From NCBI GenBank assembly GCA_000223315.2, contig AFUS01000005.1, positions 62,001-126,000 of the forward strand: 64,000 nt of DNA, written 5' to 3'. The notes beneath the pieces were generated by a model. The model searched no databases and had not been told where the DNA came from. It saw nothing but the letters and a program-made list of their open reading frames with translations. The stretch is from Parvimonas sp. oral taxon 393 str. F0440. GTDB lineage: Bacteria > Bacillota > Clostridia > Tissierellales > Peptoniphilaceae. Both the position numbers and the translations under genes were made by a program. Below, one piece after another: positions 3,481-53,582 of the stretch; position 1 is the stretch's first letter, and every line of letters begins with the position of its first letter.

Positions 3481-4875
3481 ATGGACTTAAGAGAAAATTC
3501 TTTAGAAAAAAGCAAAATTATTGCTAATGAGTTAAAAACTTCTTTAGAAGAAAAAAATATTTTTCATTTAAGAGATATAATTTATGATACAAATGAAGTA
3601 ACCCTTGCAAATATATTTGAAGAATATTTTGAAATTAAAGACATCCTATTTATGTTTAAAGTTATAAAAAAAGAAAAAACTGCTGAAATTTTTGCCTATC
3701 TTCCTCAAAATATGAAACAACAAGTAATAAATGGCTTACAAGATCACGAAATAAAAGTTATGTTAGATTATATGTTTACAGATGATATTAGTGAGTTTTT
3801 AGAAGAATTACCTGCTAATATAGTAAAAAGAGTTTTAAATTCTGCATCTAATCAAAGACGTAGTGAAATTAATATGATTTTAAACTTTAAAGAAAATAGT
3901 GCTGGGTCTGTAATGAGTACTGATTATGTTGAATTAGATCCGGAAATTACAGCAGATGAAGCTTTAAAAATGATTAAAGATAAGGAAAGGCTTGCAGAAA
4001 CAATTTCTTATTGTTATATAACTAATAATCAACATATACTTTTAGGCTTTGTTTCAATGAAAAGTATATTATTAGCTTCTGCTAATACTTTGATTTCTGA
4101 TATAATGGAAACAGATGTCATATCAGTAGAATGTGATGAAGACCAAGAAGAAGTCGCTAAAATTTTTACTAAATATGACCTGTTAGTTTTGCCTGTTGTA
4201 AATGATCAACATAGACTTATTGGAATTATTACAATTGATGATGTATATGATATTATTCAAGATGAAGTTACAGAAGACTTACAAAAGATGGGAGGTATCA
4301 CTCCAATAGAAGGCTCTTACATAAATATGTCAATTATTGAAATGGTTAAAAGTAGAATAACTTGGCTTTTAATTTTAATGATATCAGCAACTGTTTCTGG
4401 ACTAATTTTATCAAAAAATAGTGATTTAACTTTAAAAATCCCATCTTTGGTTATTTTTATTCCTATGTTAATGGATACTGCCGGAAACGCAGGAAGTCAA
4501 TCAAGTGCAATGGTTGTTAGAGGAATTGCTGTTGACAATTTAAACATAGGTGATTTTAAATATGTTATTAAAACTGAATTTTTAAATTCTTTGATTTTAG
4601 GTGCTATTTTATTTGCTGTAAATATTCTAAGAATTTTAGTATTTATGCCAAAAATTTCAATGTCTATTGCTATTTTAATTTCAGCAACAATTTATATAAT
4701 TGTCACTATTGCTAATTTAATTGGAGGAATTCTGCCATTATTGGCAAGTACATTGAAACAAGATCCGGCTTCAATGAGCGGACCGATTTTGACAACTGTT
4801 TGTGATGCTATTTCTCTTACAATATATTTTTCTTTAGCTTCATTATTTTTAGGGGGTGGACTATATGGAATATAA
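3481..4875 (+). CDS. mgtE: Magnesium transporter MgtE, copy 1
   Basis: Mg2+-gated magnesium channel in the cytoplasmic membrane. The 464-aa protein has the full family layout: N-terminal superhelical MgtE_N domain (about 20-130), paired CBS domains (about 135-260, containing AGSVMSTDYVEL), a connecting helix, and five membrane helices (about 285-460) with the conserved pore sequence PMLMDTAGNAGSQSS. The start has an ideal AGGAGG. The gene is followed by a second mgtE that overlaps its last 11 bases. Confidence 0.95.
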   Translation: MDLRENSLEKSKIIANELKTSLEEKNIFHLRDIIYDTNEVTLANIFEEYFEIKDILFMFKVIKKEKTAEIFAYLPQNMKQQVINGLQDHEIKVMLDYMFTDDISEFLEELPANIVKRVLNSASNQRRSEINMILNFKENSAGSVMSTDYVELDPEITADEALKMIKDKERLAETISYCYITNNQHILLGFVSMKSILLASANTLISDIMETDVISVECDEDQEEVAKIFTKYDLLVLPVVNDQHRLIGIITIDDVYDIIQDEVTEDLQKMGGITPIEGSYINMSIIEMVKSRITWLLILMISATVSGLILSKNSDLTLKIPSLVIFIPMLMDTAGNAGSQSSAMVVRGIAVDNLNIGDFKYVIKTEFLNSLILGAILFAVNILRILVFMPKISMSIAILISATIYIIVTIANLIGGILPLLASTLKQDPASMSGPILTTVCDAISLTIYFSLASLFLGGGLYGI

Positions 4876-6240
4876 CTTTTTAGAATACAGCAAAGAACAA
4901 TTATCTTCCCTACTTCCTGAATTAATTAAAAACAAAAAAGTATTGTTAATAAGAGAAATATTTGATGAATATAATATAGTTGACTTAAGTGAAATATTTA
5001 GCGAATTAGAACTAGATGAAGCAATATTTGTATTTAAAATTTTACCAAAAGATATTTCTGCAGAATTGTTTACCTATCTAGATTCCGAACATCAAGAGAG
5101 ATTAATTTCAGCATTGTCATCTATGGAAGTAAAAAACATTCTCGACAATATGTTTAGTGATGATATAATAGATTTTCTTGAAGAAATGCCTGCAAATGTA
5201 ATAAAATATATTTTAGAAAATGTCCCTGCAGATCACAGGAAAGAAATTAATACCCTTTTAAGTTACGAAGAAAACACTGCCGGTTCTGTAATGAGTACAG
5301 ATTTTGTAGAACTTCATGAAGAGGATACTGTTGAAGAGGCAATAATAAAAATAAAAAACAAGCTGAAATTGCTGAAACGATAAATGTTTGTTTTGTAATT
5401 GATAAAAAAAGAGTTCTTGTTGGTGTAGTAAACTTAAGAGATATAATTATTGCAAAAAATGATAAACTTATTTCAGAAATAATGGACAAAAACATTCACT
5501 ATGTTTACACCAATACCGATCAAGAAGAAGTAGCTCGATTACTAAGCAAATATGACTTAACAACTATTTGTGTGTTGAATGATCAACATTGCTTGATTGG
5601 GATTGTTACCGCTGATGATGTTTTGGATATTTTGACTGAAGAAGCAACTGAAGACATTCATAAAATGAGCGGTATTATTCCAACAGATGGTTCATACTTA
5701 AAAACAGGAACTAAAGAAATGGTTAAATCCAGAATATCATGGCTTTTAATTTTAATGATTTCTGCTACTTTCACAGGATATATTTTACAGTATTTTGAAG
5801 ATAAACTAAGCGCAGTAGCTATTTTATCTGCATCAATTCCAATTATAATGTCCACTGCAGGAAATGCAGGAGCACAAAGTTCAACAATGGTTATAAGAGG
5901 TATAGCTGTTGATGACTTAAGTATAAACGACATATTTATTGTCTTGAGAAAAGAACTTTTTGTTGGTTTGCTTTGTGGGGCGATATTATTTATTACTAAT
6001 TTTATAAGGTTATTTATATTTGGATCAAAAAACACAACATTTAATATAAGTTTAGTAGTTAGCCTAACTATAACGATATCTTTAGTTTCTGCTAACATAG
6101 CAGGTGGAGTTCTTCCTTTACTTGCAAAAAAATTAAAAATGGATCCTGCGAGTGCAGCTGCTCCCCTTATTACGACTATAGTTGATGCAACAAGTTTAAT
6201 AATATATTTTATGTTAGCAATAGTAATACTAAAAATTTAA
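4865..6240 (+). CDS. mgtE: Magnesium transporter MgtE, copy 2 (frame broken at 5353-5358)
   Basis: A second MgtE paralogue with the same layout: MgtE_N, CBS pair, and five-helix membrane domain with STAGNAGAQSS. The ATG at 4865 is preceded by AGGGGG at 4851-4856 and overlaps copy 1 by 11 bases, so the two are co-translated. A GTG at 4856 is a weaker start. The reading frame stops at 5381-5383. Adding one A to the A6 run at 5353-5358 restores IKKQAEIAETINVCFVIDKK and joins it to the rest, giving 458 aa. The break is probably a sequencing deletion. If it is real, this copy is a pseudogene. Confidence 0.85.
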
Positions 6241-6283: not shown

Positions 6284-6323
6284 AAAAAAGTGTAGATGAA
6301 TTTATAAAACATCTACACTTTTT
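6284..6323. terminator. Bidirectional terminator between mgtE and the repressor gene
   Basis: Stem TGTAGATG (6291-6298) pairs with CATCTACA (6310-6317), flanked by A-run and T-run so that it works in both directions. It lies between convergent genes, as expected. Confidence 0.85.
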
Positions 6324-6351
6324 GTATTTACCATTTATATTATTTTTAAAA

Positions 6352-6990
6352 CTATAAATTAACACAATACATAACAACCTTACCTAGTATATTAAATTCA
6401 TCGTCTTTTGAAAATTTAAAATCTGTAAATGAATGATAAGTAGAAGCGGGTCTAAAAATTATATCATCTCCATCTCTAAAAAACAATTTTAAACTATACT
6501 CCCCATTATCAGAAAATACAACAATATCCTCATCTTCCAAGTTGTAAATAGGATAATTTAACTTAACAGCAATATAACTTCCATTAGGTATTATTTTATT
6601 CATACTCTCCCCGTTAACATGCATTATTAAAATATTATCATCGTTTGCGTATGGTCCCATAACAGAATCACTTATTTCAATTTTCTCAAAATCAACCTCA
6701 TAATTAGGTCCATCTGGACTTCCCGCTGATACTCCATAAGGCAAATAATTATATAATGATGCCTTTGTAGAATTAGGTGTATTTGAATAATGTTCCCATC
6801 CCAAAATTTCTATTGGACTTGAATTATAAATTTCAGCTAACTTTACTAAACGATCAATTGGAATATTAGTAATTATATCATTTTCATATTTAAATAAATT
6901 TTGTTTACTTGTACCTATTAGTTCACCCGCATCTTGTAATGTAAGATTTGCTTTTTGTCTGAGCTCTTTTAATCTTTCACCTGTAGTCAT
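6352..6990 (-). CDS. LexA/HdiR-like repressor: XRE helix-turn-helix plus S24 autoprotease domain
   Basis: Transcriptional repressor predicted to cleave itself on stress. The N-terminal XRE-type helix-turn-helix spans residues 4-60. A linker carries an Ala89-Gly90 cleavage site (GVSAGSPDG). The S24 peptidase fold follows, with nucleophile Ser129 in VNGESM and general base Lys168 in YSLKLFF. The distances between cleavage site, Ser and Lys are close to those of LexA. With an XRE instead of a winged helix it resembles HdiR of Lactococcus or phage CI-like repressors rather than classical LexA. It is transcribed away from a 43-aa peptide gene, and operator-like repeats cover both promoters. No other prophage gene is nearby. 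Confidence 0.88.
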   Translation of the reverse strand: MTTGERLKELRQKANLTLQDAGELIGTSKQNLFKYENDIITNIPIDRLVKLAEIYNSSPIEILGWEHYSNTPNSTKASLYNYLPYGVSAGSPDGPNYEVDFEKIEISDSVMGPYANDDNILIMHVNGESMNKIIPNGSYIAVKLNYPIYNLEDEDIVVFSDNGEYSLKLFFRDGDDIIFRPASTYHSFTDFKFSKDDEFNILGKVVMYCVNL

Positions 6991-7016
6991 ACTATCACCT
7001 CTACTATTCTATAATA

Positions 7017-7048
7017 ATTATACAATAAAATAACTTAAAAAGCAATTT
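7017..7048 (-). promoter_or_regulatory. Repressor gene promoter with overlapping operator copy A
   Basis: On the minus strand, TATAAT (7017-7022) lies 17 bp from TTGCTT (7040-7045). The operator-like sequence TAACTTAAAAAGCAATTT at 7031-7048 covers the -35 hexamer and part of the spacer, which would give autorepression. Confidence 0.6.
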
Positions 7049-7084
7049 ATTTTTTATATTTTTAAAATTTTTATCAAAAGTATC

Positions 7085-7136
7085 TTGACAAGTTATTTTT
7101 TATAGTATATAATATTAGTAACTTAAAAAGTGATTT
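7085..7136 (+). promoter_or_regulatory. Consensus promoter of the 43-aa peptide with operator copy B
   Basis: A perfect TTGACA (7085-7090), 17-bp spacer and TATAAT (7108-7113) are seen. TAACTTAAAAAGTGATTT at 7119-7136 matches operator copy A at 16 of 18 positions and sits at the expected start of transcription. It contains the dyad ACTT-AAA-AAGT. An inverted half-site AAGTTA overlaps the -35 end at 7090-7095. Confidence 0.65.
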
Positions 7137-7156
7137 TTTGATTGGAGGAAACAATT

Positions 7157-7288
7157 ATGCAAAAGAGAAAAAATAAGAATCAAGATATAAATACTTTAGA
7201 AATGGTTAAATTACTATTAACTTTCACAACTTTTACTTTATCCTGTTTTTTCATGATAATGTATGGAGTAACTGGAAAATTGATTTAA
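7157..7288 (+). CDS. 43-aa single-pass membrane peptide, probable target of the divergent repressor
   Basis: Not a recognised family. The ATG at 7157 follows a strong GGAGG (7144-7148). The peptide has a basic N terminus (MQKRKNKNQD), a short acidic turn, then one hydrophobic segment (about residues 17-38) and the tail GVTGKLI, so it should insert with its N terminus in the cytoplasm. It is expressed from a perfect consensus promoter that carries the same operator-like repeat as the divergent S24 repressor gene, and it is followed by its own terminator. By analogy, small one-helix proteins under LexA-type control in other bacteria block cell division (YneA, SidA), but this one has no LysM or other domain. 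Its function is unknown. Confidence 0.7.
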   Translation: MQKRKNKNQDINTLEMVKLLLTFTTFTLSCFFMIMYGVTGKLI

Positions 7289-7349
7289 TATAAATTTTAA
7301 TTATTAAGAAATAATTTTTATTTTATTAATTGTTGAGCAATACTGGATT

Positions 7350-7397
7350 AAAGAAACATTTCAATATTGAAAATATTGAGATGTTTCTTTATTTTTG
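7350..7397 (+). terminator. Terminator after the 43-aa peptide gene
   Basis: Two 19-base arms (7350-7368 and 7372-7390) pair with a single mismatch and are followed by ATTTTTG. Confidence 0.85.
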
Positions 7398-7437
7398 TTA
7401 TAATTTTTATAATATATATATATATTAGGAGGATTTT

Positions 7438-8046
7438 ATGAGAAATTATGATATCATTTTAGCAAGTAACTCACAAAGGAGAAAAGAGCTTTTAAAATTC
7501 ATATACAATGAATTCAAAGTAATTCCTGCTAATATTGATGAAAGAAAATTAGAACAAAAATTTTTAAGTAAAACATTTAAAGATAATAAATCAAAATTTA
7601 GTGAATTATGTGATATGCTATCTTTCGAAAAATGTAAGGACGTAAGTAAAAAACATAGTAATTCTCTAATCATTTCAGCTGATACTATTGTTTATGATGA
7701 TAAATATTTATTTGGAAAACCTAACAATCTGGATGAAGCCAAATATATGTTAGAGTATTTATCCGGAAAAGAACATATTGTACAAACCTCAGTTACAATA
7801 TACTTTAATGATACTTTCTCAACATTTTGTGAAAAAAGTTATGTATCATTTTATGACTTAGACGATATTCAAAAAGAAACAATTGAATCTTATATAAAAA
7901 ATGAAAATCCATATGATAAAGCTGGTGGATATGGAATACAAGATGGTGCTAGTCTTTTAATAAAACACATAAATGGTGACTATTTTAATATCGTTGGACT
8001 TCCAATTTCAAAACTGAATAGAAAATTATTAGAAATTATATATTAA
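7438..8046 (+). CDS. maf: Maf-family nucleotide pyrophosphatase
   Basis: House-cleaning nucleoside triphosphate pyrophosphatase that hydrolyses non-canonical or modified nucleotides. Overexpression of the B. subtilis homologue inhibits septation. The 202-aa protein has the N-terminal LASNSQRRKELL signature, the central ADTIV motif containing the catalytic Asp, GKP, and the late EPYDKAGGYGIQ-like block (ENPYDKAGGYGIQDGAS). It has an AGGAGG ribosome binding site and is flanked by terminators, so it appears monocistronic. Confidence 0.93.
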   Translation: MRNYDIILASNSQRRKELLKFIYNEFKVIPANIDERKLEQKFLSKTFKDNKSKFSELCDMLSFEKCKDVSKKHSNSLIISADTIVYDDKYLFGKPNNLDEAKYMLEYLSGKEHIVQTSVTIYFNDTFSTFCEKSYVSFYDLDDIQKETIESYIKNENPYDKAGGYGIQDGASLLIKHINGDYFNIVGLPISKLNRKLLEIIY

Positions 8047-21333: not shown

Positions 21334-23078
21334 CTACCTTATATCTTTTATAAGTAATTGAATAGATTTAGTATTCATATACTCATTAATTACAGGAGTA
21401 TATAAAATATCTATAAATTTATTTTTAATATTATTCTGTTCTGATATAATGTCATTAGTTTTAAACTTTTCATTAAAATATTTAATATATTTTTCAAAAT
21501 TTGTAAAAATAATTCCGCTAAATTCTAAATCATCTTGACTCAAGACTAACTTTATAACATTTTTATTTTTACCTATAATTGAAATCGACTTAATTTCTAC
21601 ATTTTTTGCACCGAATAAAGGTTCCGGATTTGCCTTGCCATAAGGTTCCAATAACTTTAATTCCTCAACAATATTATAATTTAATAATTTAAAGTCCAAA
21701 GAACAATCTATCTTAACTTTTTCTATAAAATTTTCTAAAATCAAATCTGAATTTTTATTTAATTCATTTCTTAATATTTCTAAATTTTCTTTCTTTATTG
21801 AAAAACCGGCTGCCATAGCATGCCCTCCCAGTTTTTCAAAAAGATTTGAAAAATCTCTAAGTTTTGAAATTATATTATAATCTTCAATACTTCTGCCACT
21901 TCCCTTTAAAATACCATCTTCTTTGGCATTAGAAAAAACTAAAGTGGGTTTATAATAATAATCTTTTATTCTTCCTGCAACAATTCCTGCAATTGATTCA
22001 TGAATTTCATCATCATATACTACAATAATATCATCATCAAAATACTTATTATCTCTAATTTTCGAATTTATTCTGGAATATGCTTCATTAGTTAAATCTT
22101 TTCTCTTTTCATTCAACTCAACCAATTTTTTTGCATAATTACCAGCTATTTCTTCATTTTTTCTAAAAACAACTCTACACCTATACTTGCAGATTCTAGT
22201 CTACCAGCAGCATTAATGCAAGGTCCTAATTTATATCCTAATGAAGTAGTTGTAATCTTTCCAACTTCATTTTCTGCTTTTAACTTATTTATTCCAATAT
22301 TATCACTTGAATTTAGTATTTCTAATCCTTTTTTCACAAAAAATCTATTCTCATCAACCAAATCAACAACATCACAAACTGTTCCCATTGAAACAAATTG
22401 TAGTAAGTCTATTAAATAATCTTCATCTCCACCTAACTCATCATATAATGCCTGCATTAATTTAAAAGCTACACCAGCACCACATAATTCTTTAAACGGA
22501 TACTCACAATCTACTCTATGAGGATTAATAACAGCACTAGCTTTAGGCAATATTTGATTTCCTTCATCGTCAAAACACACTTGATGGTGATCTGTTATTA
22601 TCATTGGTATATTCAAAGAATTACAATAATCCGCCACCTCAAAAGCTGATATTCCATTATCACAAGTTATAATTAAATCTACTCCATTTTTTTTAGCATT
22701 ATCTACAATTCCTTTTGAAATACCATAACCATCTTCTATTCTATGAGGAATAGCAAAACTTATATTATCAGTAAAAAAACCTAGACCTTTCATTAAAACA
22801 ACTGTTGCAGAATTACCATCTTGATCATAATCACCGACAATTTGTATATGTAAATTATTATCTATTGCATCAACTAGAATTTCGATTGCTGTATCTAAAT
22901 CTTTCATCAAAAAAGGGTTATGAAGGTATTTATAATCAGGATATAAAAAATTTTTTACATTTTTATAGTCAATTTTTCTATTTGCTAAAAGTTGACAAGT
23001 TATATAAGAAAATTCACTATTATTTTTAAAATTTTCTTTAGTCAATCCATTATCAGACTTAATAAACCATCTTTTCAT
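21334..23078 (-). CDS. recJ: Single-strand DNA exonuclease RecJ (frame broken at 22157-22162)
   Basis: 5'-3' single-strand exonuclease for recombination and mismatch repair. The repaired product is about 581 aa. The DHH-type motifs VGDYDQDGNSATV, TCDNG, ITDHHQV and NPHR are in the first half, and the DHHA1 block KLGGHAMAAGFS is in the second. The frame ends after ELFLEK. One base added to T6 22157-22162 gives NEEIAGNYAKKLVELNEKRK and continues. The protein is short compared with Bacillus RecJ, which has an extra C-terminal domain. Confidence 0.9.
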
Positions 23079-23110
23079 AAATACCTCCTTTTTATACTAT
23101 CTATAAAGAA

Positions 23111-23133
23111 AAATAGACGAAATCCGTCTATTT
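23111..23133 (-). terminator. Terminator-like hairpin between yajC and recJ
   Basis: AAATAGACG (23111-23119) pairs with CGTCTATTT (23125-23133) and is followed on the minus strand by TTCTTTATAG. It would end or attenuate the yajC transcript before recJ. Confidence 0.65.
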
Positions 23134-23141
23134 AATAAAAA

Positions 23142-23462
23142 CTAATTTTCTTCACTATCTTCCTCTTCATCATCTTCTTCAACAGAAGACTCTTCAGATT
23201 TGCTAACGACAGAATGAATAGCAGATTTAATAAATTCTATTTTTGTTCCATCATCAGATGTCTCAATTACAACTTCAGTATCGCTAAGTTCAACAATCTT
23301 ACCTTTTATACCTCCAATAGTAATTATATTATCCCCTATCTTCAAATTATCTCTCATATCCATTATGGCTTTTTGTCTTTTCTTTTGTGGTTTAATCATA
23401 AGAAAATAAGCAATAACCATAAAACCACCTATAATAACTAATTGCATAGTTAACTGATCCAT
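23142..23462 (-). CDS. yajC: Preprotein translocase subunit YajC
   Basis: Accessory membrane subunit of the Sec translocon. The 106-aa product has one N-terminal membrane helix (LVIIGGFMVIAYFLMI), the conserved KPQKKRQKAIMDMRDNLKIG and the GGIKG motif, then an acidic tail that is unusually Glu/Asp rich. The start at 23462 (MDQLTM) is chosen over an upstream one because AGGAGG lies 6 bases before it. Confidence 0.93.
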   Translation of the reverse strand: MDQLTMQLVIIGGFMVIAYFLMIKPQKKRQKAIMDMRDNLKIGDNIITIGGIKGKIVELSDTEVVIETSDDGTKIEFIKSAIHSVVSKSEESSVEEDDEEEDSEEN

Positions 23463-23568
23463 AATATTCCTCCTAAACTTAAATATACGACTATATTTTA
23501 ACATAAAATGTATTTTATTTCAAATATTTATTTTAATATTTTTCAATCAATTCTAAATAAATTAGATA

Positions 23569-23596
23569 AAAGAGCTAATATTTTTCTTAGCTCTTT
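23569..23596 (-). terminator. Terminator of the dnaJ-clpB transcript
   Basis: AAAGAGCTAA (23569-23578) and TTAGCTCTTT (23587-23596) pair perfectly. On the minus strand it lies just downstream of the clpB stop and is followed by TTATC. Confidence 0.75.
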
Positions 23597-23615
23597 ATCT
23601 TTTTAAAATACAAAT

Positions 23616-26181
23616 TTATGAAATACAAATTTTTCCATTTATATTTTTAAAATTTATTGTGGAGTTTGGAGTAATTTTTCCTTCAATTATCTTTGTAGCT
23701 ATTTCAGTTTCAATATTTTTTTGAATGTATCTTTTTATTATTCTAGCTCCGTAGTTAAATGAATAAGTTGAATCTAAAATTAACTTTTTACAATCTTCAT
23801 CTAAATTAATCTTTACTCCAATATCTTTTAATCTGTTTTCAATTTCTGAAACAGTCATATCAATTATCTTATAAAGTTCTTCTTTTTGTAATGGTTTGAA
23901 TAGTACTATATCATCAACTCTATTTAAAAATTCAGGTCTAAAAGAGTTTTTCAACTCTTTCATAACTTCATTCTCAGCTTCTTTTGTAATTTTGCCATTT
24001 TCATCAATTCCATCAAGCAAGTAAGTTGAACCTATATTGGAAGTCATAATTATAATAGTATTTTTAAAGTCAACCACCCTTCCTTGATTATCAGTAAGTC
24101 TTCCATCATCAAGAACTTGTAATAAGATGTTAAATACATCCGGATGAGCTTTTTCTATTTCATCAAATAAAATTACACAATATGGATTTCTTCTAACTCT
24201 TTCTGTAAGTTGTCCTCCTTCATCATATCCTACGTATCCCGGAGGTGCTCCTATAAGTCTTGAAACTGAATGTTTTTCCATATATTCACTCATATCTATT
24301 CTAACAAGATTTTTTTCGCTATCGAACATACTTTCACATAATGTTTTTGCTAATTCTGTTTTACCAACTCCTGTAGGTCCTAAGAAAATAAATGAACCGA
24401 TAGGTTTATTTTCGTCTTTTAACCCACTTCTTGATCTTAAAATACAATCTCTAACTAAATCAATTGCTTCGTCTTGTCCAACAACTCTCTTATGCAAAAT
24501 ATCTCCGAGATGTAATAATTTTCTTTTTCTCCTTCGACCAATTTCTTTATAGGAATATTTGTCCACTTAGAAATTACTTCAGCTATTGTTTCTTCTGTAA
24601 CTTCTTCTTTTAAATAACTTTCTTTTTCTTTTTTCTTTTCATTAAGTTCAGCTAATTTTAATTCTAAATTTGCAAGTTTTCCATATCTTAATTCTGAAAG
24701 TTTTTCAAAGTCATATTCTCTTTCAGCTTTTTCAATATCTATTCTGACAGAATCAATTTCAGCTTTCACAGATTTTATTTCATTAATATCTTTTTTATCA
24801 CTTTCCCATCTAGCAAGTTCAACATTGTACTTGTTTTTCACATCGGAAAGTTCTTTTTCTAAGTTTTGCAACCTCTTTTTACTAATTTCATCAGTTTCCT
24901 TAACAAGACCTGCTTTTTCGATTTCTAATTGTAAAACTTTTCTTCTAAGGTCATCAATTTCTTGTGGCATTGAGTCAATTTCAGTTCTTACCATAGAAGA
25001 TGCTTCATCCATCAAGTCAATCGCCTTGTCCGGTAAAAACCTATCAGTAATATATCTATCACTTAGAGTTACACATGCAATAACTGCAGAATCAGTTATC
25101 TTTATTCCATGATGAATTTCGTATTTTTCTTTTATTCCTCTAAGAATTGAAATTGTATCTTCAACAGTAGGTTCCTTTACCAATACTTTTTGAAATCTTC
25201 TTTCCAAAGCTCCATCTTTTTCAATATATTTCCTATATTCATCAAGTGTTGTTGCACCTATTGTGTGCAATTCTCCTCTAGCAAGCATTGGTTTTAACAT
25301 ATTTGATGCATCCAAAGCTCCGTCGGTTTTTCCTGCACCAACTAAAGTGTGAATTTCATCAATGAATAAAATTATTTCGCCTTCTGAATTTTTGATTTCT
25401 TCAAGAACAGCCTTTAATCTTTCCTCAAATTCTCCTCTAAATTTGGCACCTGCTATTAAACTTCCCATATCTAATGAAAAATTATTTTATTCTTTAATCC
25501 ATCTGGAACGTCATTATTTACAATTCTTTGAGCTAATCCTTCAACAATAGCTGTCTTACCAACTCCGGGTTCGCCTATTAAAACAGGATTATTTTTTGTT
25601 CTTCTTGATAAAATTCTAATTGAATGCCTTATTTCTTCATCTCTACCAATCACAGGATCAAGTTTACCGTTTCTTGCTTCTTCTGTTAAATTTCTTCCAT
25701 ATTTTAACAATTCTTCGCTTGTACTTCCATCTTTATGTTCATTTTTCATATTCTTAATTCCCATCAAAGCATATTTAAAAGAGTTGTATGTTATGTTATA
25801 CTTTCTAAAAATATCTGATGATTTTATATTCTTTTCTTTCAAAAGAGAAAGGTAAATGTGTTCAGGTAAAATTGTACTATCTCCTGTTCCTTTTATTTCA
25901 TCTTCGGAATTAAGCAAAATTCTTTGATAAACGGTATTTGGATAAATATTAGAATCTCCATATTGTGAAGGTAAATTATCAAAAGCTATCTTAACATCAT
26001 TTCTATAGCTGTCTATATTCACATTCATTATATTCAAAATCTTAATAATTATATTATCATTATCAATCAAAGCTTTGTGTAAATGAATATCTGAAATTTC
26101 AACATTTGCATTTTTTATTGCCAAGCTTTGAGACTCTTCTACAATTTTCATTGCATCACTACTAAATTTTTCTAAATTCAT
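23616..26181 (-). CDS. clpB: ATP-dependent disaggregase ClpB (two frame breaks)
   Basis: Hsp100 chaperone that rescues aggregated protein with DnaK/DnaJ. The repaired product is 855 aa, typical of ClpB. It has an N-terminal repeat domain (1-145), a first AAA+ domain with [15 protein letters not shown], a coiled-coil M domain (about 400-520), and a second AAA+ domain with [14 protein letters not shown], ending in the C-terminal small domain. The M domain distinguishes it from ClpC/ClpA. The frame breaks at A5 25477-25481 (repair gives [17 protein letters not shown]) and T4 24519-24522 (repair gives [18 protein letters not shown]). It lies 144 bp after the dnaJ-like gene and is probably in the same CtsR-controlled unit. 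Confidence 0.93.
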
Positions 26182-38854: not shown

Positions 38855-41800
38855 TTAGTTTATACGAAAACAATCTTTTCCAAAATTATTTTCTAATTCA
38901 ATAAGTAAATTTTCATTTTTTAAATCAAATTTATTTTCTAATCTTAAAGTTTTATTGTTAGATAAAATATACAAAATTACTTGATTTTCTCCACCATATT
39001 TTTCTGAAAATTCTCCAAGTTTTTTCTTAATATTATTATCAAAATTTTCTAATTTTATATATAGTTTCTTACTATAAATTTCTTCAATTTCCTTAGCATC
39101 AATTATAGTATAATTAGTATTTCCAAATGAATTAACAGCTACTTTAACTGATATTTCATAAATTTTCCCTTTATGAATATCTAAATCCATTACATCTAAG
39201 AGTTCAATACTACTTGAAAAGTCTTCAACATTTACAGTTTTTAACATTTTATTTTTTTATTTCTTCTTGTTTTTACAGAATTTACATAAACTATTACTTT
39301 ATAGATACCTTTGTCTAAAACTTTTAAGTCAATCAACTTCATAGTTTTTTTAGATTTTATATATTCTTTATAATCATCTAATGGATGTGAAGAAATATAA
39401 AATCCTAAAACTTCTTTTTCAAATTCAAGAATATCGTCCTTTGAAAATTTTTCAGACTTAACAAATTTTTCTTGCATAAAATCCGAACTGATTAAAGAAA
39501 GCTGTCCCGATAATTCATTTTTACTTTTTGAAACTATTTGTGTAAATAAAGTTTCAAAAGAATTCAAAATTTCTATTCTGCTTTCTTCTATTTCATCAAA
39601 AGCCCCCGACTTTATTAAATTCTCAATAGATGTCAAATTAATATTCTTTGAATCTTTTAATTTTTCTAAGAATTCTTTGAAATTTTTAAATTTCCCATTC
39701 TTTCTTTCTTCAATTATATCTTTAGCTAAAAGTCTGTTAAATCCTTTTATCTGTGAAAAACCTATTCTCATAAAATTTTTTTCTGTACTAATTTTATAAA
39801 AACTAAAGTTTACACTTGGAAGTAAAATCTTTATACCCATCTTTTTAATTTCTTGAAAATATTGAAAAAATTGTCTTTCATAATTAATAACAGAATTTAA
39901 AAGGCAAACCATATATTCAAGTGGATAATAATATTTTAAATATGCAGTCCTATAAGCATTTAATGAATAACAAGCACTATGTGATTTATTAAATGCATAA
40001 TTTCCAAATTCCACAATTAAATCAAAAATATTTTGTGCAAGTTTCTCATCCACTCCATTTCTAACACAACCTTTAATTTTTATACTACCATCTAAATTAT
40101 CCAAGCCATAAATAAAAATCTTTCGATTATATTCCATAATATCCATATGTTTTTTCCCGATGGCTTTTCTTAAATTATCCGCTTGCCCCCAAGAATATCC
40201 TGCAAGCTCTCTAGCAATCTGCATAACCTGTTCTTGATATACAATAATTCCATAAGTAGATTTTAAATACTTTTCTAAACGCTTATCTAAATATCTAATA
40301 CCATTAGGATTTCTTTTATTTTTTATATAATTAGGTATTTGATTCATTGGTCCTGGTCTAAATAGAGAATTTGCTGCAACTAACTCATTAAAATTATCTG
40401 CTTTTAAATCTTTTAAAAACAACCTCATACCTGTACTTTCAAATTGGAAAACTCCAATTGTTTCTGCAGTTTTAAATAAATTTAAAACATTTTTATCATC
40501 TAATGAGATTTTTTCTATATCGATATCTTTATTATATTTTTCTTTAACAAGTTTTATAGTATCATCAATTACTGTAAGAGTTCTAAGTCCTAAAAAGTCC
40601 ATCTTTAAAAGACCTAATTCCTCTAATTCTATCATATTAAATTGTGTTACAATATTTTCTCCACTTTTTGAAAGTGGAATATATTCTGTAAGTTCTTCCT
40701 TAGTTATAACAATACCTGCAGCATGAATTGATATATGTCTATGAAATTTTTCAAATTTTTCAGAAGTGTTAATAAGTTTTTTTATATTTATATCTTCATC
40801 ATATAATTTTTTTAATTCTAAACTATCTCTTAATGCATTTTTAAAAGTAACATCCAAATTATTTGGAATTAGTTTTGCTACTTTATCAACAGTTGATAAC
40901 TTATATCCTAAAACTCTACCAATATCTCTAACTGCAGCTCGGGGTTTCATAGTTCCAAAAGTTACAATTTGAGAAACATGATTTTTTCCATATTTTTTAT
41001 TACATAATCAATAACTTCTTCACGTCTTTCATTACAAAAATCTATATCAAAATCAGGCATAGATATTCTTTCAGGATTTAAAAATCTTTCAAATATCAAA
41101 TCATACTCTATTGGATCTATATCAGTAATTTCTAAACAATATGCGACAATTGAATTGGCTCCGGACCCTCTCCCCGGTCCTACAGGAATTTTATTTTTCT
41201 TAGCAAAATTTACAAAATCCCAAACAATAAGGAAGTAATCTGTAAATCCCATTTTATTTATAATTGAAAACTCATAATTAACTCTTTTTTTGATTTCATC
41301 AGTAATATTTTCATATCTATTTTTCATGCCTTCAATAATTAAACTATGCAAATAGTCTTCCTTTGTACTTACACCATCAGGAACCTTATATTCAGGCAAA
41401 TGATATGTTGAAAAATCAAATTCTACATTACATCTTTGAGCAATCATTTTTGTATTATATATTGAATCTTTAAGCGAAGAAAATATTTTTAACATTTCTT
41501 CTTCACTCTTTAAATAATATTCTGATTTAGTAAAATTATCTTCCTTTAATTCAGACAGTAAAACTCCTTTAGATATACATCTTGCAATATTAAATAAGTT
41601 AAAATCTGTATTTTCTAAGTAATGGACGTCATTAGTTACAACAGTTTCTACATTAACTTCATTTGCAAATTCCAAATACTTATTTATCATCAATTCATCT
41701 TTTTCTTCAAAATGAAAATTTAATTCCAAGAATAAATCTTCTTTATTAAACAAACTTTTAAAATTTAATATTTCATTTTTTGCACTTTGAATATCATCTT

Positions 41801-42221
41801 TATACAAACATTTTCGAATAAAACTTCTCTTTGAACCAACTATTAAAATTAAATTTTTAGAATATTTTTCAAGTTCATCAAAAGTAATAAATTCTCCAGT
41901 CCTATTTTCAATAACATATAAATTAGAAACCAATTTACATAAGTTTTTATAACCGAGATTGTTTTTAGCCAATAAAATTATATTATAAAATTCGTTATTC
42001 GGGTATAACAAAGTTAACTCACAACCAATAATTGGTTTTATTGAATTTTTCTTACATTTTTTATAAAAATCAATAACACCATACATATTATTATAATCTG
42101 TAATAGCCATAGCTTTAAAATTTAATTCTTTTGCTTTTTCTATTAATTTCCCCATAGGATTATAATTGTTCAACAGACTATATTCAGTATGAACATTTAA
42201 ATGTACAAAATCATTAGCCAA
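38855..42221 (-). CDS. dnaE: DNA polymerase III alpha subunit DnaE (two frame breaks)
   Basis: Replicative polymerase of the C family. The repaired product is about 1122 aa. It has the N-terminal PHP domain ([12 protein letters not shown]), the palm with [10 protein letters not shown] and the catalytic Asp residues in MPDFDIDFC, the helix-hairpin-helix region, and a C-terminal OB fold. The start is taken as TTG at 42221 (GAGGTG then 6 bases). Repairs are needed at T6 40993-40998 (giving [19 protein letters not shown]) and T7 39252-39258 (giving [17 protein letters not shown]). PolC is also encoded in the window, as expected for a Firmicute with two C-family polymerases. Confidence 0.94.
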
Positions 42222-42341
42222 AATTATCACCTCTTTATTGATTTTACCATATTTTTAATAATTTTTAAATATATTTTTGTTAATCACTTTATATTTTTAT
42301 TATTTTATGTTACAATCTTATAGTATGAAGGGAGAAATGAT

Positions 42342-52459: not shown

Positions 52460-52482
52460 ATATACATTATGAGGTGATTAAA

Positions 52483-53582
52483 ATGTTTTTTAAAAATAAA
52501 AATTTATATAAAATAGACTTATTTATTCTTATTTCTTTAGTTTTAATAATTCTAATTGGATTGCTAAATTTATATAGTGCAACATTAAGTTTAAAGAGAA
52601 ACTTTATGCTATCGCAATCTATTGCAACTATACTTGGTTTTATCTTAATGTTTATATTAATTGCGGTAAATATACAATTTTTAAAAAGACTATATTTACC
52701 TATTTATATAATTTCAATAGCACTTTTAATTTTGGTACTTATTATTGGTACAGGAGATTCTGTTGGTGCAAGAAGTTGGATAAAATTAGGTCCTATTTCT
52801 TTTCAACCATCTGAATTTGTAAAACTTGGTATGATTATCTGTTTAGCAACTGTTATTGAAAATAACAGTGCAAAATTGAATGAACCTAAAACTTTAATTA
52901 AAGTTTTGATTTTCGCTTTTATTCCAGTTGGATTAGTCCTTATGCAACCGGATTTTGGAACTGCTTTTGTATTTATACTAGTAATAGGATCTATGCTTTT
53001 TGTGGCTGGAATTAGCTTAAGACTTGTAGTATATACATTAATTACTGCTATTGCAAGTTTACCTGTTTTTATTTTAGCTTGTCTCCTTATCAAAAGAATA
53101 GAATCTTAAACTTTTTAAATCCTGAAAGAGACATAACAAATACCGGATATCAAGCAGTACAAGGAAAAATAGCCGCAGGTTCTGGAAAATTTATTGGAAG
53201 AGGACTTTTTAAAGGTCCCCAAAATCAATTTAACTTTATTCCAGAAAAACAAACAGATTATATATTTCCTGTCTTTGTTGAAGAAATGGGATTTGTTGGA
53301 GGAACAATTTTAATTGGTTTATACACAATTATGTTATACAGATTTGTAAGACTTTCCAAAAAAACAGCTAATAAATTTAATCAAATGTTAATTATAGGGA
53401 TATGTGCAATGTTTTTAGCACATATTTTTGAAAATATTGGAATGACTATTGGACTTATGCCTATAACCGGTATTCCTCTACCATTTTTAAGTTATGGTGG
53501 AACTTTCCAATTAGTAAATTTAATAGCAATGGGAATTGTATTATCCATATCTTGTGAAAAAACTCCGCTAGACTTTATGTAG
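52483..53582 (+). CDS. rodA: RodA/FtsW-family peptidoglycan polymerase (frame broken near 53066-53075)
   Basis: SEDS glycosyltransferase that polymerises lipid II. The repaired product is about 366 aa with about 10 membrane helices, and has GARSWIKLGPISFQPSEFVK, the catalytic-loop region RILNFLNPERD, and the late PLPFLSYGGTFQLVNLIAMG. Its short length and lack of long termini favour RodA (elongation) over FtsW. The ATG at 52483 is chosen because GAGGTG lies 6 bases upstream. The frame breaks after PVFI. One T added in 53066-53075 gives FSLSPYQKNRILNF. Confidence 0.88.

Follow-up and report, generated by a model that had tools for sequence, protein, structure and literature searches.

What does a phage-type repressor regulate when no phage surrounds it, and why would a human oral bacterium of the genus Parvimonas keep it back to back with a gene for a 43-residue membrane peptide? 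The original prediction took the pair for a minimal damage-inducible switch. We examined the anatomy of the genes and of the sites between them, their conservation, the presence of RecA and LexA in the genus, and the kinship of the repressor, and we consider it fairly probable that a phage repressor, co-opted by the cell, runs a minimal switch responsive to DNA damage, with the membrane peptide as its visible target.

The locus and its setting

The window, i.e. the whole stretch of DNA that was analysed, is 64,000 nucleotides long and comes from a source genome (G000) of 1.48 Mb over five contigs that is about 90% complete. The divergent repressor and peptide genes are separated by 166 bp and are flanked by mgtE and maf. 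The order mgtE-repressor-peptide-maf is kept in five of the six genomes of the genus, so the divergent pair, whose conservation in relatives the original prediction had left to be checked, is in the same place in all but one. The repressor gene of the remaining genome, G004, is located elsewhere. Among named relatives that also encode the repressor, the closest are P. micra SYY (95%), P. parva S3374 (93%) and Tissierellia bacterium KA00581 (78%).

6285-6324, no strand assigned: hairpin, likely a two-way terminator, where the mgtE and repressor genes converge
6352-6990, minus strand: XRE-S24 repressor of the phage CI type, 212 aa
7157-7288, plus strand: 43-aa peptide with one hydrophobic stretch
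7438-8046, plus strand: maf (Pfam Maf, 1.1e-48)

The coordinates of the first hairpin were placed by eye, and it is not among the terminator-scan predictions. A Pfam search of the 13 neighbouring window proteins turned up neither integrase nor structural genes near the repressor; these neighbours carry housekeeping domains, with one protein lacking any family over the cut-off. The remainder of the window and the 12.6-kb locus of P. micra SYY were judged by eye for phage genes, with the same outcome. All this agrees with the original claim that phage genes are absent nearby.

Several frames in the window are split. The second mgtE (4856-6240) falls into two frames here, and in P. micra SYY (L048) it is one uninterrupted frame of 458 aa; genes that by eye are recJ-, clp-, dnaE- and ftsW/rodA-like seem to be broken into adjacent frames (21334-26181, 39241-42230 and 52474-53582). 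The number of split housekeeping frames suggests assembly or sequencing errors in the source genome.

A repressor with the features of self-cleavage

Both Peptidase_S24 and HTH_3, the latter N-terminal, exceed their Pfam cut-offs in the repressor. The protein has the Ala89-Gly90 cleavage site and the Ser129/Lys168 dyad of the S24 (CI/LexA) type, at the positions originally given for them, and these four residues are unchanged in nine aligned sequences and likewise across a second alignment of 11, of which two are partial; both alignments include the window protein. The best PHROG match is a transcriptional repressor (E 7.5e-33). Against the LexA equivalog model TIGR00498 the repressor scores 28.4 bits, with a curated cut-off of 110.95, and is thus not a LexA by this model.

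In the AlphaFold2 model of the repressor (mean pLDDT 78.1, pTM 0.60), the C-terminal part matches RecA-filament-bound structures of LexA and lambda CI and the N-terminal part matches ImmR and P22 c2. The top full-length fold matches score low (TM 0.41-0.47) because the two domains are positioned differently. The catalytic residues and fold matches support a repressor of the self-cleaving type, the cleavage of which would be stimulated by RecA. S24 repressors are reported to be capable of responding to signals other than RecA, IrvR being an example (PMC7101444).

Three predicted operators in the gap between the genes

The 166-bp gap contains two promoters and three copies of TAACTTNNNAAG, a pattern with four copies in the entire window.

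7017-7045, minus strand: repressor promoter, -35 TTGCTT (7045-7040) and -10 TATAAT (7022-7017) with a 17-bp spacer
7031-7042, plus strand: predicted operator O_R, TAACTTAAAAAG, which overlaps the -35 and spacer of the repressor promoter; in five species the block 7027-7052 is invariant
7084-7095, minus strand: predicted operator O1, TAACTTGTCAAG, with the peptide -35 inside it; in five species the block 7084-7101 is invariant
7085-7113, plus strand: peptide promoter TTGACA-17-TATAAT (TTGACA at 7085, TATAAT at 7108-7113), 12/12 consensus
7119-7130, plus strand: predicted operator O2, TAACTTAAAAAG, over the expected transcription start of the peptide gene; invariant block 7117-7131 in five species
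7144-7148, plus strand: ribosome binding site GGAGG, kept in five species

None of 20,000 dinucleotide shuffles of a 166-bp stretch produced three TAACTTNNNAAG sites. In the five species none of the 36 operator columns varies, compared with 126 invariant columns of 166 across the whole gap (hypergeometric P of about 1e-5, with columns treated as independent). G004 retains O_R and has neither O1 nor O2. When read as CTTNNNAAG with TAA/TTA arms, the sites would be pseudo-palindromes, a form that fits a dimeric repressor. As O1 spans the peptide -35 and O2 the expected start, a bound repressor should, from its position, block the polymerase.

Shared operators between the divergent genes were thus rightly anticipated, as was an 18-bp element that occurs twice, with cores at 7031-7042 and 7119-7130 and 16 of 18 bases in agreement. 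This pair is modest by itself, given that an equally good one arises in two of 300 dinucleotide shuffles of the gap, which is A+T-rich DNA. An inverted half-site had also been proposed on the peptide -35, and it does lie there on the opposite strand; it is, however, not a half-site but a full third site (7084-7095). The peptide promoter is the perfect consensus that had been described, although promoter-like sites overall are at chance level in the scan (13 found, 11.8 expected). The transcription start of the peptide gene was deduced from the position of this promoter. The repressor -35 is a weak match that was placed by eye and is not among the promoter-scan predictions.

A conserved membrane peptide

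The GGAGG sequence, the strong ribosome binding site of the original prediction, precedes ATG 7157 by eight bases, which makes this codon the likely start and 43 residues the likely length. The most hydrophobic 19-residue windows (1.78) cover residues 16-34 and 17-35 and follow a basic N terminus. Strong scores for the peptide occur in five of the 130 genomes of the family, all of them Parvimonas, and there is no match in G004. Changes among the five species are restricted to residues 6-12 and 17, and residues 18-43 are identical. The dN/dS ratio is about 0.09-0.23 over ten pairs, with dN of 0.03-0.10 and dS of 0.22-0.71, values that derive from few changes (3-9.5 of one kind and 5-11.5 of the other). 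The conservation supports the divergent peptide gene being genuine. In every pair the peptide dS is lower than the repressor dS, and the DNA or RNA may therefore be under a further constraint.

Outside these five genomes, 42 of the 130 contain peptide matches at E <=0.5. They were taken as chance, the best (E 0.005) being 31 residues within a 136-residue frame. The same verdict was reached for weak matches to Pfam DUF4227 (E 0.44) and PHROG 13363 (E 0.037). The peptide is absent from the phage and plasmid records searched.

Possible actions of the peptide and the role of maf

Three further features separate the peptide gene from maf, which adjoins it in five of the six genomes.

7332-7349, plus strand: conserved 18-base element after the peptide gene and before the terminator
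7349-7391, plus strand: 20-pair hairpin resembling a terminator, assigned to the peptide gene
7376-7404, plus strand: probable maf promoter, 11/12, partly inside the hairpin

The hairpin corresponds to the terminator originally assigned to the peptide gene. The probable maf -35 lies within it, and transcription of the peptide gene and of maf may consequently affect each other. The original prediction named the peptide as the only local output; it stands as the sole clear target, but maf downstream had been overlooked, and read-through into maf as a second output is a matter of speculation. In the 18-base element, 15 of 17 columns are invariant in five species compared with 80 of 149 around it, the element having been picked after the alignment was seen. 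A search of Rfam up to E 1 returned only one chance-level microRNA match and nothing beyond chance for this element.

A finer version of our explanation, which we hold as a tentative possibility, is that the peptide inhibits division in the manner of SidA, SosA or YneA, perhaps together with Maf as a division checkpoint. A one-helix membrane peptide under an S24-type repressor has a precedent in SidA, a 29-aa SOS-induced inner-membrane protein that is described as acting on FtsW (PMC4211646). Maf, too, reportedly interacts with FtsW and blocks septation in B. subtilis (PMC3899018), and its gene adjoins that of the peptide in five of six genomes. However, the peptide has no family match to known division inhibitors at the thresholds used, a strong hairpin and a separate promoter stand between it and maf, and the adjacency of the two genes may be inherited gene order.

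TisB exemplifies another kind of action, that of a toxin-like or depolarising peptide which brings about dormancy under damage. The basic N terminus, the single hydrophobic stretch and the consensus promoter under double-operator control would all suit a TisB-like role, which we nevertheless regard as rather unlikely: Pfam, NCBIfam and PADLOC contain no matching toxin family, and as regards a possible antisense RNA, minus-strand promoter-like sites are at chance level, and the one Rfam match is at chance level as well.

RecA without a recognisable LexA

RecA and the repressor are each present in all six genomes of the genus. A profile search found no lexA over the curated cut-off in any of them (the source genome is about 90% complete, and the five fuller genomes agree). 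In five of the six, the sole weak match to the LexA profile is the repressor itself, and G004 has one additional weak match. Across the family, 76 of 130 genomes have a LexA score above the cut-off, and matches at 1e-20 occur in 34 of 39 genera, some of them covering the S24 domain only. As 45 of the 130 genomes are without a LexA match at 1e-20 and some matches are confined to S24, Parvimonas is not the sole lineage of this kind. Loss of lexA in Parvimonas would be the simplest reading of these searches. With no lexA over the cut-off and RecA present, control by damage is likelier than it would be from the sequence of the locus alone.

Error-prone polymerase and recA, genes that some repressors of the FddR and HdiR type control without this being a strictly defining property, show no sign of such control here. 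A Y-family polymerase (IMS domain) is encoded in one of the six genomes (G005, locus L097), where three CTTNNNAAG sites are found, all without the TAA arm. No operator lies within 600 bp of recA in any of the six genomes, where the sequence just upstream looks coding and the promoter may be further away. Judged by eye, the L097 polymerase gene adjoins an XRE gene of its own and a metallopeptidase-like gene, neighbours that suggest a mobile cassette outside the control of the repressor studied here.

It is rather unlikely that Parvimonas has both lost LexA-controlled SOS and reduced its damage response to one circuit, in which a captured phage repressor and a division-stopping membrane peptide operate, perhaps joined by maf through read-through, and no repair gene is controlled.

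Operator copies elsewhere in the genomes

The 18-bp element of the original prediction has exactly two copies in each of the five genomes that carry the switch pair, both at the switch, with no further exact copies; G004 has none. A genome-wide regulon defined by the strict operator is not supported: with up to two mismatches, the 19-base pattern falls short of its reversed control in every one of the six genomes. Paired operators, in contrast to their reversed control, number 11 vs 2 in G000, 14 vs 6 in G001, 20 vs 10 in G002, 6 vs 4 in G003, 9 vs 3 in G004 and 10 vs 7 in G005. A pair with O1 and O2 cores occurs only at the switch, in five of the six genomes; most of the other pairs look like coding DNA by eye, and one that is common to G001 and G002 resembles a hairpin.

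The loose pattern WAACTTNNNAAGW is twofold over its reversed control in G004 (L008; 125 vs 63), a genome that encodes the repressor and has no peptide match, and is close to the control level in the other four genomes counted. In G004, an O1-like site precedes a tRNA cluster by about 280 bases, and of two further sites in this genome one falls within a long coding frame and the other in a gap of a region that looks mobile by eye. One single-mismatch site of G001 sits in an apparent transporter gene (by eye). A second genome match of the intergenic DNA, immediately before a tRNA cluster of that kind, was taken as likeness between A+T-rich promoters.

These counts bear on whether the repressor acts as a master regulator of SOS, with the peptide as just one of many targets scattered over the genome under single operators. 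Its presence in G004 together with O_R and without a peptide match means that the repressor could persist for reasons other than the peptide, and the lack of a lexA over the cut-off, the loose-pattern excess in G004 and the paired-site counts in all six genomes point the same way. Yet a broad regulon of this kind is distinctly improbable, with the loose pattern near control in the other four genomes counted, the 19-base pattern below control in all six and no site near recA.

Phage kinship of the repressor

Matches to the repressor at 1e-20 are found in 19 of the 130 genomes of the family, the six Parvimonas and 13 others. The 13 contain 14 loci (L083-L096), the L096 protein being identical to that of L085, and ten of these were covered by a Pfam test of neighbours (all but L084, L090, L093 and L096). 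Eight of the ten have an integrase-type or Bro-N domain nearby: an integrase-type domain over the cut-off at L083, L091 and L092, an integrase match below the cut-off at L088 and L094, and Bro-N at L085, L086 and L087. A Cro/C1-type HTH protein is the neighbour at L089, and an uninformative domain that at L095. In the best-matching viral contig (L110, 43%), an integrase adjoins the repressor. Phage records matching the repressor number 76, all below 60% identity, with the best 15 of the 76 at 40%.

In a protein tree of 17 sequences (17 of 28 passed the filter, which dropped L087, L090, L094 and L111-L118), the six Parvimonas repressors form one group (support 99/99). The tree carries a long-branch warning and gives no precise phage origin for them. 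With such kin, the repressor of the original prediction is re-read here as a co-opted phage component, and the locus as a phage part that the chromosome appears to have taken over.

Less probable still than a broad regulon is residual phage immunity or superinfection exclusion, whereby the repressor would shut out incoming phages that share its operators, the peptide serving as an exclusion protein: the integrase-type or Bro-N domains at eight of ten tested loci and the 40% identity of the best listed phage records are in keeping with it, but the repressor is in all six genomes of the genus and at one housekeeping locus in five, the peptide is in no phage or plasmid record searched, and the 18-mer, which occurs in 96 viral-contig stretches, has one copy in each of the 80 that were listed, with no operator pair among them.

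A proposed model of the switch

From this anatomy we infer repressor binding, RecA-driven cleavage, induction by damage and an action of the peptide, and propose the following model. A phage CI-type repressor would have been captured by an ancestor of Parvimonas, whose lineage has no recognisable LexA, and would have become established there as a chromosomal regulator. In undamaged cells, a repressor dimer would bind the pseudo-palindromic TAACTTNNNAAG operators. Occupancy of O1 and O2, at the -35 and the start site, would keep the peptide gene off despite its consensus promoter, and occupancy of O_R would restrain the synthesis of the repressor itself. DNA damage would give rise to RecA filaments, on which the repressor would cleave itself at Ala89-Gly90, releasing a burst of both peptide and repressor. 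The peptide would then enter the membrane and most likely pause growth or division until repair.

Comparison with known systems

In the lysogeny switches of phages such as lambda and P22, the CI repressor gene is divergent from another gene and the two share several operators. The Parvimonas repressor gene has this arrangement as well. Unlike these switches, it has no surrounding phage, no Cro-like gene in the gap and a membrane-peptide gene as its divergent partner, and it is found genus-wide.

SidA, SosA and YneA are described as small SOS-induced membrane proteins that inhibit division, and the Parvimonas peptide may be of this kind. SidA of Caulobacter, for instance, is under SOS control and is reported to be able to block division (PMC4211646). 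No sequence kinship between the Parvimonas peptide and these proteins was found, and its predicted control is by a phage-type repressor and not by LexA.

A Gram-positive precedent for the repressor is HdiR of Lactococcus and Streptococcus, described as a phage-like S24 repressor that takes over in the absence of LexA (PMC8565304). The reported targets of HdiR include umuC and, in S. thermophilus, cinA-recA (PMC8565304), whereas five of the six Parvimonas genomes have no Y-family polymerase and no site is found near recA.

The closest described system found is FddR of Francisella, reported as an S24 repressor from phage that was co-opted in a genus lacking canonical LexA control and that acts on itself and on a divergent gene of unknown function and has a very small regulon (PMC13148647). 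Three traits place the Parvimonas repressor with FddR and HdiR: LexA was not found, the repressor is genus-wide and its kin are phage repressors. With FddR it further shares a divergent gene, but the FddR operator is given as GTG-N11-CAC and its divergent gene is a different one, whereas Parvimonas has three predicted operators and a 43-aa membrane peptide. FddR is, moreover, backed by RNA-seq and gel shift, and the Parvimonas switch is predicted from sequence. Titles and the beginnings of abstracts of open-licence papers contained no published account of the latter. In the proposal of the FddR authors, divergent units of this sort are the pieces from which SOS networks are rebuilt (PMC13148647). 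If our reading is true, Parvimonas would represent an independent phage-repressor stand-in for LexA in a human oral bacterium, at the smallest stage of one regulator and one clear target, and a membrane peptide as the only clear output would suggest that what selection keeps is growth arrest and not repair.
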